Source: Acetobacter okinawensis JCM 25146 | GTDB lineage: Bacteria; Pseudomonadota; Alphaproteobacteria; Acetobacterales; Acetobacteraceae | NCBI RefSeq assembly: GCF_000613865.1 | Contig: NZ_BAJU01000009.1 | Location: 1 to 64,000, forward strand | Direction of reading: 5' to 3' | DNA: 64,000 bases | Shown: piece after piece, positions 39,703 to 46,293 of the stretch | Layout of the letters: every line of letters starts with the position of its first letter | How positions within the stretch are numbered: the first letter of the stretch is position 1 | Position numbers and translations under genes: made by a program | The notes under the pieces: generated by a model | The model's input: only the letters and a program-made list of their open reading frames with translations | Databases searched by the model: none | What the model was told of the DNA's origin: nothing

Positions 39703-41394
39703 ATGGTCGCAGCCTCCACACGCCCCCGTGGTACAGATATGACAAGGGAACTGGTGCGCATTGCGCGTGGCTGGTTGCTTGGGTCTGTTGTGGCCGGGGG
39801 TGTGAGCGCTGTTCTGCTGGTATGCCAGTTTGTCCTCCTTGCGCATGTGGTGGACAACGTGGCGTTTCATGCTCAGGCCCCCCACACGCAAGGGCGCGCA
39901 TTTATACTGATCCTGATCTGCCTTGCAGGGCAGGTGGGGGCGCGTTTTGCATCTGACATGATGGGAACACGGGCCGGGCTGCGGGTGGCCAGTCATGTGC
40001 GCGGGCAACTTCTGGCGCATCTGTTTGCTGCGGGACCAGTTGCATGTGCGGATGTGGCTGCCGGAGATATCGTGACCACCTTTACGGAAGGGGCGGCAGC
40101 GCTGGTCCCTTATTTTGCCCGTTACCTGCCTTCTGCTGCCATGATGGTCGTTTTGCCTCTGCTTATTCTGGCAGTTGTGGCGGGCGTGGATGGGTGGAGT
40201 TTTCTTGTGCTGGCCTGCACCGGCCCACTTGTTCCCGTATTCATGGTTTTTGTGGGCTATGGCGCGCAGGCCATTATGGACCGGAGGTGGCGTCAGCTAT
40301 CCCTGCTGGGTGGTAGTTTTCTCGATGCGTTGCGGGGGTTAAAAACCCTGCGTCTGCTGGGGCGCGCACAGGGGAGTCTGGAGCGGATTACCCAACTGGC
40401 GGATGCGCACAGGCGTACGACCCTGTCGGTTATGAAGGTGGCGTTCCTGACGTCTGCTGCACTGGAGTTTTTCTCCAGCCTGTCCATAGCACTTGTGGCT
40501 GTTGTGTTTGGCACACGTCTGTTGGCGGGCACTGCCGACTTCCGCTCTGCTTTTCTGGTGCTGCTGTTGGCCCCAGAGTATTTTATGCCCTTGCGCACTT
40601 TTTCTGCCAGTTATCATGCGCGGCAGAATGCGCAGGCTGCATGCAGAGCATGGATACGGTTTTGGGTCTTGCCCACTCTGGCTCGCTCCTATAGCGGGCA
40701 ACCCATGCAGGGCGTGATCGGGGGAGTGCAATGCCGTGCTCTTTGCGTGTGTCGGCCGGATGGTATGTCTGTTCTGCACGACGTAACCTGTGATTTTGCA
40801 GCAAACAGGTTAACGGTCCTGACCGGGGCGAGTGGTGCAGGTAAAACCACGCTACTCCATGCCCTGCTTGGTTTTATTCCTGTTTCAGTTGGAACGCTGG
40901 AAGCCAGCAATGTGTCTGGCCACCCCATACAACTGGATGGTGTGCGCATGGCATGGGTGCCACAACGCCCGGTTATGGTTTTTGGCACCGTGGCTGACAA
41001 CCTGCGCCTTGGTGCGCCGGATGCGGATGAGGAGCAACTGCGCCACGCAGCGGCACAGGCCGATGCGCTGGGCTTTATTGATGCACTCCCCAATGGGTTT
41101 GAAACGCATATAGGCGAACGGGGGAGCCGCCTGTCCGGCGGGCAGGTGCGGCGTCTGGCCCTAGCGCGTGCTCTGCTGCGCAACCCGGATGTTCTGGTGC
41201 TTGATGAGCCAACGGCAGGGCTGGATGCAGCCAGTGCGTTGCGGGTGAGCAATGCCATATGCCGCTGTGTGCCAGGGCGCATTGTTGTTGTGGCAACCCA
41301 CGAGCAGGTCATGGCTGCACGCGCGGACGTGCTGCTGCATGTGGCTGACGGCACGGTTGTCGTGCAGCCGGTCAGGGCGGAGAGCGTTGCATGA
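39703..41394 (+). CDS. cydD: CydD, ABC exporter subunit for bd-oxidase assembly
   Basis: CydDC exports cysteine/glutathione and is needed to assemble cytochrome bd. The 563-residue half-transporter has an N-terminal membrane domain (helices at [40 protein letters not shown] and others) and a C-terminal ATPase with Walker A LTGASGAGKTTLLHALL, signature LSGGQVRRLALARALL and Walker B VLVLDEPTAGLD. ATG 39703 is used; ATG 39739 (MTRELVRIARGWLL) is an alternative closer to the family N-terminus. The stop overlaps the cydC start. The stretch around residues 313-332 looks unlike its relatives and may hide a compensated frame slip. Confidence 0.9.
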   Translation: MVAASTRPRGTDMTRELVRIARGWLLGSVVAGGVSAVLLVCQFVLLAHVVDNVAFHAQAPHTQGRAFILILICLAGQVGARFASDMMGTRAGLRVASHVRGQLLAHLFAAGPVACADVAAGDIVTTFTEGAAALVPYFARYLPSAAMMVVLPLLILAVVAGVDGWSFLVLACTGPLVPVFMVFVGYGAQAIMDRRWRQLSLLGGSFLDALRGLKTLRLLGRAQGSLERITQLADAHRRTTLSVMKVAFLTSAALEFFSSLSIALVAVVFGTRLLAGTADFRSAFLVLLLAPEYFMPLRTFSASYHARQNAQAACRAWIRFWVLPTLARSYSGQPMQGVIGGVQCRALCVCRPDGMSVLHDVTCDFAANRLTVLTGASGAGKTTLLHALLGFIPVSVGTLEASNVSGHPIQLDGVRMAWVPQRPVMVFGTVADNLRLGAPDADEEQLRHAAAQADALGFIDALPNGFETHIGERGSRLSGGQVRRLALARALLRNPDVLVLDEPTAGLDAASALRVSNAICRCVPGRIVVVATHEQVMAARADVLLHVADGTVVVQPVRAESVA

Positions 41395-43114
41395 TGGCGC
41401 AGGGAAGTCCTTTGCAGGGTGAGGGCCTGATGTCGGGCTGGAGGGGGGTCTCCGCTTGGCCGCTGCTGCGCGGTGGCGTCTGGTCTGGGGGGTGGCGCTT
41501 GCTTGTGCGGCGTCACTGGCAAGTTTTGGCCTGCTTTTCCTGTCGGGCTGGCTGCTGGCGGGTGCGGCGGTGGCCGGGCTTGCAGGGCAGGTGAGCGCGC
41601 GGGCTTTCAATATTATCCTGCCGTCAACGGGTGTGCGCTTTTTTGCCATGGTGCGCATTCTGGCCCGTTATATGGAGCGGGTTGTTGCCCATGATGGTGC
41701 TTTGCGCCTGACGGGGCAGTTGCGTGCATGGGTGTATGAACGGTTGATCCCCCTTGCTCCGGCAGGGTTGGTGGAGTTGCAGGGCGGAGACATGTTGGGC
41801 CGCTTTGTCTCGGATACGGACAAGGTTGCAGCATATTATACGGATGTTGCTCTGCCTTTTGCACGCGCCGCGTTGTGTGGTGTGGTGTTTGTCGGGGTGT
41901 TTGCCTGTTTTCTGCCGCTGGCGGCGCTGGTTCTTGCACTTGGGTTGCTGGGTGGGGCGCTGGTGCCATGCCTGAGCGGCGCTGCAATGGACCGGCTGGT
42001 AAGGAGGGGAGCAGAAAAGCAGAGCCAGATTCAGGCAGAACTGGCGGAAACACTTCAGAATCTGGGTGAGTATCTGCTTTTGGATGCGGCATGTAGCCGT
42101 GCCAAAGGTTGGCAGACTCAGCAATCTGCTGTGGATCATGCACGCTGGATGCTTGACGCGCTGGAAGGAGCCGCACGCGGGCTTGTTACAATCCTGACAT
42201 TTGTCACAGCGCTGGCCGTGCTGGTTCTGGCGGCGCACGCGCACCAGATGGGGCAGTTGAGTGTTGCTGAAATTCCCATGCTGGTTCTGGGGGTTCTCGC
42301 AGCGTTTGAGGTTGTAACCCCCCTGCCGCTGGCGCGGCAGGCTGCGGCGGAAGCGCGGCTGGCAAGTATGCGGTTGCAAATGGCGTGCGCGCCGCATGGT
42401 GCAGCGGAGGTGGTGCAACCCCACGCCCTGCCTCACGCTCCGTACGACCTGGTAATGCGTGACGTGAGTTTTGCATACCCCAAGACTGTCAGCCCGGTTT
42501 TGCAACATGCATCGCTGAGCATACGTCAGGGCGAGCATGTGGGGCTGGTAGGGCCATCGGGCGTGGGTAAAAGCAGCCTTATCAATCTTCTGTTCGGGTT
42601 TTATGCACCTTGCGGTGGCAGCATAACCTTTGGTGGGGTGGATGTGCGCCTGCTCCGGGCCGAGGATATGGCGGCGTTTGTTGCTGTGGTCGCACAGGAC
42701 TTTCATCTGTTTGCCGGAACATTAAGGGACAACCTGCTGCTTGGTGCGCCGTCCGCCACGGATGCGGATGTGGCGGAGGTGCTGGAGGTGGCGCAGTTAA
42801 CCCGGTTTGTTCAGTCCCTGCCAAAGGGTTTGCAAACATGGGTTGGCAATGATGGTCTGCGCCTCTCTGGTGGGCAGGCGCGTCGGGTGGCTGTTGCTCA
42901 GGCCCTGCTGCGGCGGACACCATGGCTTGTTCTGGACGAACCGACCGAGGGGCTGGATGCGCCCCTTGAGCAGGCTCTTATGGCGGCCCTTACGTGGTGG
43001 GCTGCTGGCACTACCATTGTGTGCATGACCCACCGCACGGCGGTGCTGCCATTCATGCACAGGGTTGTCAGGGTGGAAGACGCACGCTTTTGCCCGGAAG
43101 GGAGAGCGACATGA
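41391..43114 (+). CDS. cydC: CydC, ABC exporter subunit for bd-oxidase assembly (frame broken near 41456)
   Basis: Partner of CydD. From ATG 41391 (overlapping the cydD stop, ATGA) the protein reads MMAQGSPLQGEGLMSGWRG; one T is missing at 41456-41457, and with it SALAAAARWRLVWGVALACA continues into the main frame. Membrane domain followed by ATPase with Walker A LVGPSGVGKSSLINLLF, signature LSGGQARRVAVAQALL and Walker B LVLDEPTEGLD. Rebuilt length about 574 residues. It is separated by 47 bases from cydA, so the assembly factors and the oxidase belong to one operon. Confidence 0.9.
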
Positions 43115-43161: not shown

Positions 43162-44756
43162 ATGGATCTGATTAACCCTGCGGTCGTTGACCTCTCACGC
43201 TTTCAGTTTGCGTTGACGGCTCTTTACCACTTCATGTTTGTTCCCCTTACATTGGGGCTGACCTTTATGCTTGCGGCTATGGAAACGGTGTACGTCGTGA
43301 CCGGCAAGCAGGTGTACAAGGATATGGCCCTGTTCTGGGGCAAGCTGTTTGGCATCAACTTTGCTCTGGGGGTCGCCACCGGGCTGACCATGGAGTTTGA
43401 GTTCGGCACCAACTGGTCCATGTATTCCCGCTTTTTTGGGGATATGTTTGGCACGCCGCTGGCCATTGAAGGACTGATGGCGTTCTTTATGGAATCCACC
43501 TTTGTTGGTCTTATGTTTTTTGGCTGGGACCGCCTGAGCAAGCCTGTGCATCTGGCGATTACCTACCTTGTTGCACTGGGCTCCAACCTGTCTGCCTTGT
43601 GGATTTTGGTGGCCAATGCCAGCATGAACATGCCCAACGGCGCACATTTTGACCCCGAAACACTGCGTATGACGTTTGACAGCTTTGTTGGCGTTGTCTT
43701 CAACCCCGATGCACAGGCCAAGTTCGTGCATACATCGGTTGCGGGGTATGTGGCGGCGTCCATGTTTGTCATGGGCATTAGCGCCTTCTACCTGCTGCGC
43801 AAGGAACACCGGGAGTTTGCTGCCCGCTCCTTTAGAATGGCAGCGCTGTTTGGCATTTTCTCCACTGTTGCGGTCATTACGCTGGGCGACGTGCTCGGCC
43901 GTCTGGACTATGAGCACCAGCGACCAAGATCGCGGCCATTGAGGGGCTGTGGCACACCAGCAAGCCGCCTTATGAGCCATGGATTATTGCTGCTCTGCCC
44001 AATGATGCCAAGCAGGAAAGCTCGTATGAAATTGGGGTGCCGTTTGTGCTGACCCCGCTGATTACGCACAGCTTCACCACCCCCATTACCGGCATGATCG
44101 AACTGGAAGACGCAGCCGCTCCACGCATTGAGTCCGGCATTGCCGCTGTCAGTGCCCTGCGCCGGTATGAGGAGGGCCATCAGGCGGCGGATCTGGAGAT
44201 GTTCCATGCTCATCAGAACGACATGGGCTACGGCCTGCTGGCATCGCGGCATGCGCCTAATCAGGATGTTACCGCCATCCCTCCCGAGCAGATCCAGAGT
44301 GTTGTCGAGCAGACCAAGCCGGATATCCTGCCTAATGTGTTTGTGACCTTCTGGTCCTTCCGCCTTATGGTTTTTCTCGGCGTTTTCTTTTTCGTTCTGT
44401 TTGCAATGGCGTCCTACCTGAGCCTGAAGAACCAGCTGGAACGTAACCGTCTGTTCCTCAAGATATGCATGTGGGCCATTCCCCTGCCTATTCTGGCAAC
44501 GGAGTTCGGCTGGATTACGGCAGAGGCTGGCAGACAGCCATGGACGGTGTTTGAGCGGCTGCCTACCTTTATGTCTGCTTCAACGCACAGCGTGTCTTAC
44601 ATGCTGTTCTCGCTGGCCGGGTTTACTGTGCTTTACAGCATATTTATCGCGGTTGAGCTTTACCTGATGTTCAAGTTCGCACGGTTGGGGCCGGAGGCGC
44701 ATGGTCAGCACGACCATGGTGCTGACGCAGACCACCTGTCCATTGTGGCGCATTAA
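43162..44756 (+). CDS. cydA: Cytochrome bd ubiquinol oxidase subunit I, CydA (frame broken at 43921)
   Basis: CydA binds haems b558, b595 and d and oxidises quinol. The haem-ligand helices [20 protein letters not shown] and [15 protein letters not shown] are present, as are [18 protein letters not shown] and [18 protein letters not shown]. At CACCAGCGACC one C is missing (43921); adding it gives [20 protein letters not shown] and joins the frame ending at 44756. Length about 531 residues, which suits the long-Q-loop CydA form better than the short cyanide-insensitive form (inference from size). Operon order is cydDC-cydAB-cydX. Confidence 0.92.
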
Positions 44757-44771
44757 GGAGGGTCTTGCATC

Positions 44772-45908
44772 ATGGACCTTTATGTTATTCTCAAACTCGT
44801 CTGGGCTGGCCTTTTGTGTGTGCTGCTGATCGGGCTTGGCCTGATGGTGGGCATGGATATGGGGGTAGGCACCCTGCTGCGCTTTGTGGGGCGCACGGAT
44901 GGGGAGCGCCGCACGGCGCTCAACATTATCGGCCCGCACTGGGACGGGAATCAGGTCTGGTTCATTCTGGGCGGGGGGGCTATTTTTGCAGCGTTCCCCA
45001 CCCTGTATGCCACATCCTTTTCCGTGTTTTATGTGGTCATGATCCTGCTTTTGTTCAGCATGATCTTGCGGCCTGTGGCGTTTGAATACCGCTCCAAGGT
45101 GGATGCACGCCTATGGCGGGCAAGCTGGGACTGGGTTTTTCTGCTTTCAGGCTTTTTGCCCATGTTTGTGTATGGCGCAGCCTTTGGCAATATTCTTCAG
45201 GGGGTGGGTTACCACTTTAACTGGAGCGGGCAGTATTTTCAGGACGGGTCGTTCCTGAGTTATCTGCTCAACCCCTTTGCCATTCTGTGTGGTCTTATGG
45301 CGGTCAGCCTGAGTGTGATGCAGGGTGGGGTCATGCTGATGATCCGCTCCGAAAACCCGATCCATGACCGTGCGCGCCGTTACGCCAGCCGTGCGGGACT
45401 TGTGGCGGTTGTCCTGTTCCTTGTCGGTGGTGTGTGGGTGCGGGGCATGCATGGCTTTGTGTTGGAGCAGGGGAATCCTGCCATGCCAGCAAACCCCATG
45501 CACGGGCAGCACGTCAGCATGCAGGTTGGCGCGTGGTTGAACAACTATGCAGCACATCCCGTACTGTGGCTGCTGCCGCTGCTGGGTGTGGTGTGCATGC
45601 TAGCGGAGGTAGCGCTGGTGCTGGCCAACAGGCCGCGTGTGGCATGGTGGATGGGCCTTGGTGCCTGGGTGGGCACAATTGGCACGGTTGCGGCCTCCAT
45701 GTTCCCGTTCTTTATGCCGTCCACCACAAATCCGGATCAGAGCCTGACAATCTGGAACAGTTCTGCCAGCCAGTACGGCCTGACCTGCATGCTGGCTGTG
45801 GCCCTGATTTTTGTGCCGCTGATCCTGTGTTACACATCATGGTGCTATTACGTGATGCGTGGCAAAGTACATACGGCAGATATTATAAAAGACACGCATA
45901 GTTACTGA
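44772..45908 (+). CDS. cydB: Cytochrome bd ubiquinol oxidase subunit II, CydB
   Basis: A complete 378-residue membrane subunit with eight to nine predicted helices. Characteristic stretches are GLGLMVGMDMGVGTLLRFVG near the N-terminus, WDGNQVWFILGGGAIFAAFP and PSTTNPDQSLTIWNSSASQY towards the end. It starts 15 bases after cydA with GGAGG upstream, and the small cydX gene follows 14 bases after its stop. Nothing unusual. Confidence 0.95.
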   Translation: MDLYVILKLVWAGLLCVLLIGLGLMVGMDMGVGTLLRFVGRTDGERRTALNIIGPHWDGNQVWFILGGGAIFAAFPTLYATSFSVFYVVMILLLFSMILRPVAFEYRSKVDARLWRASWDWVFLLSGFLPMFVYGAAFGNILQGVGYHFNWSGQYFQDGSFLSYLLNPFAILCGLMAVSLSVMQGGVMLMIRSENPIHDRARRYASRAGLVAVVLFLVGGVWVRGMHGFVLEQGNPAMPANPMHGQHVSMQVGAWLNNYAAHPVLWLLPLLGVVCMLAEVALVLANRPRVAWWMGLGAWVGTIGTVAASMFPFFMPSTTNPDQSLTIWNSSASQYGLTCMLAVALIFVPLILCYTSWCYYVMRGKVHTADIIKDTHSY

Positions 45909-45922
45909 AAAGGAGAGGGGAG

Positions 45923-46120
45923 ATGAAAATCTTTCTGCGTTTTGCAGGGTTGGGTCTGGCTCTGGTGGTGGCTTTGCTGTTTGCCGTTTTTGTGGGCGAT
46001 CAGGGGCCTTGGTACTTTGCATGGGCGGTAGGCACGGTCATGATTATTCTGGTCGCAGCTGCCGGGGGTGTTCTGTTTGACGCACAGACCGAAGACCATG
46101 TGTCTGAAGGGGAGTTCTGA
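45923..46120 (+). CDS. cydX: CydX-like small subunit with an extra N-terminal membrane helix
   Basis: A 65-residue membrane peptide. Its second half, PWYFAWAVGTVMIILVAAAG followed by a polar tail, closely follows the CydX signature WYFAWxLG that sits at the extreme N-terminus of E. coli CydX (37 residues). Here it is preceded by a complete additional hydrophobic helix, FLRFAGLGLALVVALLFAVF. CydX stabilises the haem-d site of CydAB. AGGAGAGGGGAG before the ATG is an excellent ribosome site, and the gene is directly after cydB. The two-helix form is unusual compared with the classical peptide. Confidence 0.8.
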   Translation: MKIFLRFAGLGLALVVALLFAVFVGDQGPWYFAWAVGTVMIILVAAAGGVLFDAQTEDHVSEGEF

Positions 46121-46122
46121 GC

Positions 46123-46221
46123 ATGATGGGTGATCTGGAAGCCATTATATTTTTTGTACCGTTTTTGTATTTATCCTTTTATATAATAGCATTTTCTGTT
46201 ATAAAAAGGATGTTTCCCTAG
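46123..46221 (+). CDS. 32-residue membrane micro-ORF behind cydX
   Basis: Two bases after the cydX stop an ATGATG opens a frame of 32 codons: MMGDLEAIIFFVPFLYLSFY, then IIAFSVIKRMFP and TAG. It is one hydrophobic helix with an acidic N-terminus and a basic C-terminus, as for membrane peptides with the N-terminus outside. AAGGGGAG at the end of cydX supplies a ribosome site, and the operon terminator follows 37 bases on. Codons are notably AT-rich. It matches no cyd-operon peptide known to me (CydX, CydH, CydZ/DUF2474, YbgE). Coding is supported by position, start signal and composition; function is unknown. Confidence 0.55.
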   Translation: MMGDLEAIIFFVPFLYLSFYIIAFSVIKRMFP

Positions 46222-46257
46222 CCTGTAATTCTGACATCAGGGAAGCCGCACAAAGGA

Positions 46258-46293
46258 ACAGCCTGCATATCGCAAGATATGCAGGCTGTTTTG
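46258..46293 (+). terminator. Terminator of the cyd operon
   Basis: ACAGCCTGCATAT, CGCAA loop, ATATGCAGGCTGT, then TTTG. Perfect 13-bp stem. Confidence 0.85.

Follow-up and report, generated by a model that had tools for sequence, protein, structure and literature searches.

Small membrane subunits help to set the assembly and dimerisation of cytochrome bd oxidases and the entry of O2 and quinol. The one-helix peptides CydX, CydS, and AppX are stable subunits that bind CydA (PMC8951039), while CydX forms a dimer contact and CydH, also called CydY, closes a groove near heme b595 (PMC8951039, PMC6853902, PMC13189123, PMC8585947). Small open reading frames (ORFs) behind cydB were surveyed by Allen et al., who named CydY and CydZ and mentioned further candidates (PMC4325964). 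A two-helix CydX of acetic acid bacteria was published in 2014 to 2015 (PMC4325964, PMC5322542) and is also named for Frateuria, Acidithiobacillus, Thiomonas, and Bordetella avium (PMC4325964). Here we describe a further gene, for a 32-amino-acid (aa) membrane peptide, directly behind such a cydX at the end of the cyd cluster of Acetobacter okinawensis JCM 25146. It lies in a stretch of 64,000 nucleotides (nt), positions 1 to 64,000 of contig NZ_BAJU01000009.1, here called the window. The peptide is probably a new single-helix accessory subunit of cytochrome bd-I from one clade, or an obligatory assembly partner dedicated to it. Full-text searches of the open literature found no report that acetic acid bacteria have another small gene after cydX, and passages of a 2023 study of Acetobacteraceae respiration mention none (PMC10715153).

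A conserved coding sequence behind cydX

The ORF begins with ATG at 46123, two bases past the cydX stop codon (TGA, 46118 to 46120), and runs for 32 codons to a TAG at 46219 to 46221, exactly where the original prediction had placed it. The start signal claimed behind cydX is also present, as an ATG with the Shine-Dalgarno-like site AAGGGGAG within the 3' end of cydX. The encoded peptide, MMGDLEAIIFFVPFLYLSFYIIAFSVIKRMFP, is acidic at its N-terminus and basic at its C-terminus, with a single hydrophobic stretch, an arrangement that had been predicted and is seen in the charges and hydropathy of its relatives as well. The gene is AT-rich (29% GC), and a search of the window's own genome at E 10 or better returned a single copy.

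The genus-level search covered 100 relatives, comprising 49 genomes of the same genus (its own included) and 51 others. The peptide was found in 35 of the 49 (E 1.4e-5 or better), and these are all 35 genomes with a close-type CydB; none of the remaining 14 has it, G010 among them giving a chance match only (E 1.5). There was no match below E 0.1 in the 51 genomes outside the genus. Every one of the 35 genes starts with ATG and has a Shine-Dalgarno-like site, compared with 293 of 2997 (9.8%) other ATGs. In 34 of them cydX lies directly 5', with the peptide start -4 to +3 bases from the end of the cydX stop; in the 35th (G036) the cydX frame is disturbed and the gap is 2. Across 29 distinct full-length sequences, M1, E6, P13, and Y16 do not vary, and G3, D4, I9, F11, L17, A23, and P32 are nearly invariant.

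Substitutions in this frame are mostly synonymous. The ratio of nonsynonymous to synonymous change (pN/pS) is 0.057 in the eight nearest species and 0.34 over 34 sequences (the truncated G048 being left out), a set in which synonymous sites are saturated. The same DNA read in the other frames gives 0.83 and 1.89, and a neutral star simulation gave a mean of 0.98 (standard deviation, 0.12; minimum, 0.72). Variation is highest at third codon positions (0.43 versus 0.26 and 0.13). Because change is mostly synonymous and the frame, start, and ribosome site are conserved, 46123 to 46221 is, by its pattern of substitution, a real protein-coding gene under purifying selection. Conservation of the frame had been set beforehand as the deciding test of the prediction; within the genus the frame is kept together with its start codon, ribosome site, and key residues, and the synonymous bias that had been looked for is strong.

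Linkage to one clade of cytochrome bd

In a sample of 397 genomes of the family, a profile search for the peptide matched 69 at E 4.5e-4 or better and 74 at E 0.1 or better. The additional matches (G192, G374, G134, G127, and G326; E 0.01 to 0.08) were rejected as chance, since all five lie outside the set of 123 genomes in which cydB was matched. When these 397 genomes were searched for CydB at E 1e-50, close-type CydB was identified in 69 (67 at 491 bits or more, one contig-edge fragment, and one broken fragment) and only distant-type CydB (345 bits or less) in 54. The peptide is present in 68 of the 69 genomes with close CydB and in 0 of the 54 with distant CydB only. The sole close-CydB genome without it, G268, has a cydB fragment with an internal stop, and the sole peptide match without cydAB, G281, is a relic that has lost its start and the invariant proline. 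Peptide and cydB share a contig and strand in 67 of the 68 genomes, where the peptide lies 206 to 337 nt behind the point at which the cydB match ends; in G408 they lie on two different contigs. Within a single genus (g93), genomes with close CydB (G264 and G332) have the peptide and those with distant CydB (G140, G216, and G301) do not. Judged from these genomes, the peptide tracks operon type, not species. Conservation in other Acetobacteraceae, proposed as a check on the prediction, thus extends to the sampled genomes that have close-type cytochrome bd.

Beyond the family, the peptide itself was searched for in 51 genomes, with one pattern in contigs, and in plasmids; phylum and class samples were searched for CydB and the DNA downstream was then read. 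At the 84 loci where the DNA behind cydB was read (a few are repeats of one genome), the peptide is present in all 63 whose CydB has an identity of about 59% or higher (minimum, 58.97%; domain E no worse than 2.5e-5) and in 0 of 21 with 56% or less. CydX stands beside the peptide at 62 of the 63 loci by script and at L133 by inspection, and these were judged two-helix from a hydrophobic stretch ahead of the WY.xW motif. The 21 peptide-free loci comprise 17 with a one-helix CydX, three with a two-helix CydX (L121, L143, and L144), and one with no CydX (L145). On a CydB tree of 81 rows, the presence of the peptide requires one change (60 versus 21 rows; support 100/99), which means a single gain, or a single loss on the other side, in or next to the lineage with two-helix CydX. 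Named holders, a lower bound taken from 36 loci by one exact pattern, include Acetobacter, Komagataeibacter, Gluconacetobacter, Saccharibacter, Acidocella, and two unplaced proteobacterial bins. In three Acetobacter assemblies, at G029:C172, G009:C227, and G036:C108/C197, cydB is interrupted or split over frames or contigs, through draft errors or real decay.

The gene set also occurs on Thioclava nitratireducens plasmid NZ_CP019439.1 (L122), where cydAB and a two-helix cydX are followed by the peptide MNLVQFIFFVPVIYLVFYLIAWLYARRHFPNSDE, its ATG overlapping the cydX stop. This match in the plasmid tblastn search has E 1 and was accepted because it is placed behind cydX and scores 33.9 bits against the peptide profile; the only other match, in Agrobacterium, was dismissed as chance. 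The gene is unlisted in the plasmid's annotation (the PLSDB gene table, which is stated to be incomplete). On this plasmid, typed as conjugative (Rhodobacterales), the acetic-acid-bacteria-type cydAB-cydX-peptide set lies between IS481 and IS6 transposases, and two ABC transporter genes beyond it may be cydDC.

Predicted topology and position in the complex

AlphaFold2 predicts one helix for the peptide, residues 2 to 30, with a mean predicted local distance difference test score of 93.5. Of 45 sequences (30 of the genus and 15 taken from other loci), all carry a net basic C-terminus and 44 a net acidic N-terminus. By the positive-inside rule the basic end lies on the cytoplasmic side, so that the C-terminus would be cytoplasmic and the acidic N-terminus periplasmic. 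We envisage a peptide that uses a ribosome site of its own, its gene following cydX immediately or sometimes overlapping it. A helix of about residues 7 to 27, with Pro13 and Tyr16 (both invariant in the genus) at its middle, would span the inner membrane once and, as a presumed member of the complex, would pack against CydA or the two-helix CydX.

Residues specific to the clade were sought by comparing CydA between 40 peptide-clade sequences (L082 to L117 without the short row L105, which was dropped, plus L122 and L186 to L189) and 16 others. At 22 positions the peptide clade has a fixed residue that the others do not share. The Q-loop, which we take to span residues 240 to 384, holds 12 of them, compared with 54 of 288 other fixed positions (Fisher p 4e-4). 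The equivalent comparison of CydB yielded 17 clade-specific columns and no site. Tyr243 of E. coli CydA, among the Q-loop positions, is replaced by Arg, and Ser233, just ahead of the loop, by Ala, each in 97% of the 40 sequences. In the E. coli enzyme these two residues belong to the quinol site and to the interface between CydA and CydX (PMC13189123). Since four peptide-free loci of another class (L180 to L183) likewise depart from the E. coli residue at each of the two positions, with Phe at 243, a CydX-side placement is pointed to weakly. Our guess, loosely held, is that the peptide sits on the CydX/Q-loop face rather than in the CydH groove. A rebuilt bd-I of acetic acid bacteria, in which the two-helix CydX and the peptide form a three-helix bundle on this face and alter the dimer interface and quinol site, is a tentative extension that may well not hold.

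Subunit, assembly partner, or other role

A subunit or assembly partner is the best reading because the known one-helix bd peptides are subunits and because the gene is linked to one CydAB clade. At the genomic level this supports the original prediction of a third small bd-oxidase subunit, with membership in the complex following from that linkage. Several points weigh against it. Linkage within one clade does not separate a stable subunit from an assembly factor, and where clade-specific residues crowd in the Q-loop, effects of the peptide, the two-helix CydX, and shared ancestry are confounded. The near-complete Acetobacter genome G048 has a stop at codon 26 that removes the basic tail (G048:C1:1209002-1209097) while cydB is intact. 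The two-helix-CydX operons L121, L143 (where only 386 nt downstream are visible), and L144, with CydB at 53 to 56%, lack the peptide, so that it is not required by every two-helix-CydX enzyme; they belong to another class of the same phylum than the window, presumably Gammaproteobacteria. A dedicated assembly or maturation factor of CydABX, which binds newly made CydA or CydX while it is inserted or loaded with heme and then leaves, would fit the clade linkage equally well, and the gene is the last of the cluster, directly behind cydX. We regard this as unlikely, given that in other bd oxidases the one-helix peptides CydX, CydS, and AppX stay in the enzyme as stable subunits (PMC8951039).

A divergent CydH/CydY (YnhF) homologue, relocated to the operon and occupying the same heme b595-guarding groove of CydA, is less likely again. 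CydH is already known as the second one-helix subunit in a long-Q-loop bd-I, and none of 61 relatives (37 of the genus and 24 from other families of the class) has a CydH above cut-off, so that the groove would otherwise probably be empty; 22 have sub-threshold matches, and only one of 14 controls, presumably E. coli, exceeds the cut-off. However, neither the window peptide nor 29 relatives match the CydH/CydY model NF033411 in NCBIfam, hhalign against E. coli CydH gave a probability of 0.2% (a weak test with a one-sequence template), and the clade-specific CydA residues are not gathered on what we assume to be the first and last helices. A free-standing membrane peptide, such as a stress regulator or toxin-like product merely sharing the transcript, might be small and hydrophobic with a basic tail, as this one is. 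It is nevertheless very improbable, as the family sample holds none apart from close cydB except the decayed G281 (with G408 on separate contigs), and the gene travels with the cyd operon on the Thioclava plasmid. The AT-rich composition and adjacent hairpin would suit a chance ORF or a conserved noncoding element (a 3' untranslated region or terminator) read as a frame, as would the identity past the stop codon in the eight nearest species, which fades over about 50 nt (0.96, 0.85, 0.77, 0.67, 0.37). Such an origin is refuted at the sequence level and has almost no probability left: over 34 genomes identity drops to background directly past the stop, the other frames contain stops, the amino-acid motif is kept across 27 to 61% GC, and the third-position variation and pN/pS, far below neutral, are those of a coding frame.

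Gene cluster and terminator

The peptide ORF follows cydD, cydC, cydA, cydB, and cydX (Table 1), and a short-chain dehydrogenase gene on the opposite strand comes after the cluster. The window's CydB shares 99% identity with its G022 counterpart, and the window's cydX matches YbgT_YccB (PF08173) weakly and below cut-off (E 0.11). The cydA frame is broken, which may be a sequencing error or real breakage, two cases that the window alone does not separate; between the cydA and cydB starts the window is 1 base shorter than the A. okinawensis relative L082. The operon terminator claimed for this site is in part borne out. A 17-bp hairpin, its 3' foot running into TTTTGTATT, starts 33 nt past the peptide stop, and the 89-nt stretch that contains it folds at -32.5 kcal/mol (z -5.15; 0 of 200 shuffles as low), from which we read it as a probable intrinsic terminator. 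A simple terminator scan does not list it in its + strand output.

Table 1 Features of the cyd cluster in the window
Feature	Position	Strand	Basis
cydD, thiol reductant ABC exporter subunit	39703..41394	+	TIGR02857, 503 bits, above cut-off
cydC, thiol reductant ABC exporter subunit	41456..43114	+	TIGR02868, 392 bits, above cut-off; start codon uncertain
cydA, cytochrome bd subunit I, frame-broken	43162..44756	+	ORFs 43162-44052 and 44037-44756
cydB, cytochrome bd subunit II	44772..45908	+	TIGR00203, E 2.6e-118
cydX, two-helix kind, 65 aa, motif WYFAWAVGT	45923..46120	+	Two-helix form described in PMC5322542
Shine-Dalgarno-like site AAGGGGAG of the peptide gene, within cydX 3' end	46107..46114	+	
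32-aa single-helix membrane peptide gene, last in cluster	46123..46221	+	ORF, conservation, purifying selection, charges/hydropathy, AlphaFold2 helix
Probable intrinsic terminator, 17-bp hairpin into TTTTGTATT	46255..46292	+	Fold

Comparison with known small subunits

The claim that the peptide matches no known bd-oxidase peptide stands after comparisons with Pfam, NCBIfam, PDB, and hhalign, all without a convincing match. The window peptide matches no family in Pfam or NCBIfam, including CydX (PF08173/TIGR02106), and its 29 relatives give weak matches to unrelated families only (best E 0.049), none of them CydX; a PDB search with the peptide returned nothing. An origin by duplication of CydX was considered and set aside, as hhalign found no profile similarity between the two (single sequences, a weak test).

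Like CydX, AppX, and CydS, the peptide is a tiny one-helix membrane protein encoded directly behind cydB in the cyd operon, but here the operon already has its own two-helix CydX and the peptide lacks the WYFAW motif with which the CydX helix starts. Its length of about 30 aa, single helix, and presence in addition to CydX recall CydH/CydY (YnhF), the fourth subunit of E. coli bd-I; CydH, however, is encoded outside the cyd operon (PMC6853902), and no sequence similarity was found. CydY of Allen et al. and CydZ (DUF2474, PF10617) are likewise small hydrophobic peptides behind cydB that are tied to a CydA clade. Theirs come from operons that lack cydX, and a Trp is conserved where their helix starts (PMC4325964), whereas the present peptide is added to CydX, conserves no such Trp, and has no Pfam match to CydZ. 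With YbgE (E. coli cydABX-ybgE) it shares a place directly after cydX, although YbgE is an annotated PF09600 protein of 294 bases and nothing in Pfam matches the window peptide. The conservation of another small gene after cydX within one clade offers a test case in tractable industrial bacteria, and structures of such enzymes may be incomplete when only cydABX is expressed. As with the small bd accessory subunits, this is a conserved small membrane peptide co-encoded with cydAB; on genomic evidence it is a new family of small bd-oxidase-linked peptides, next to a two-helix CydX that is already published.
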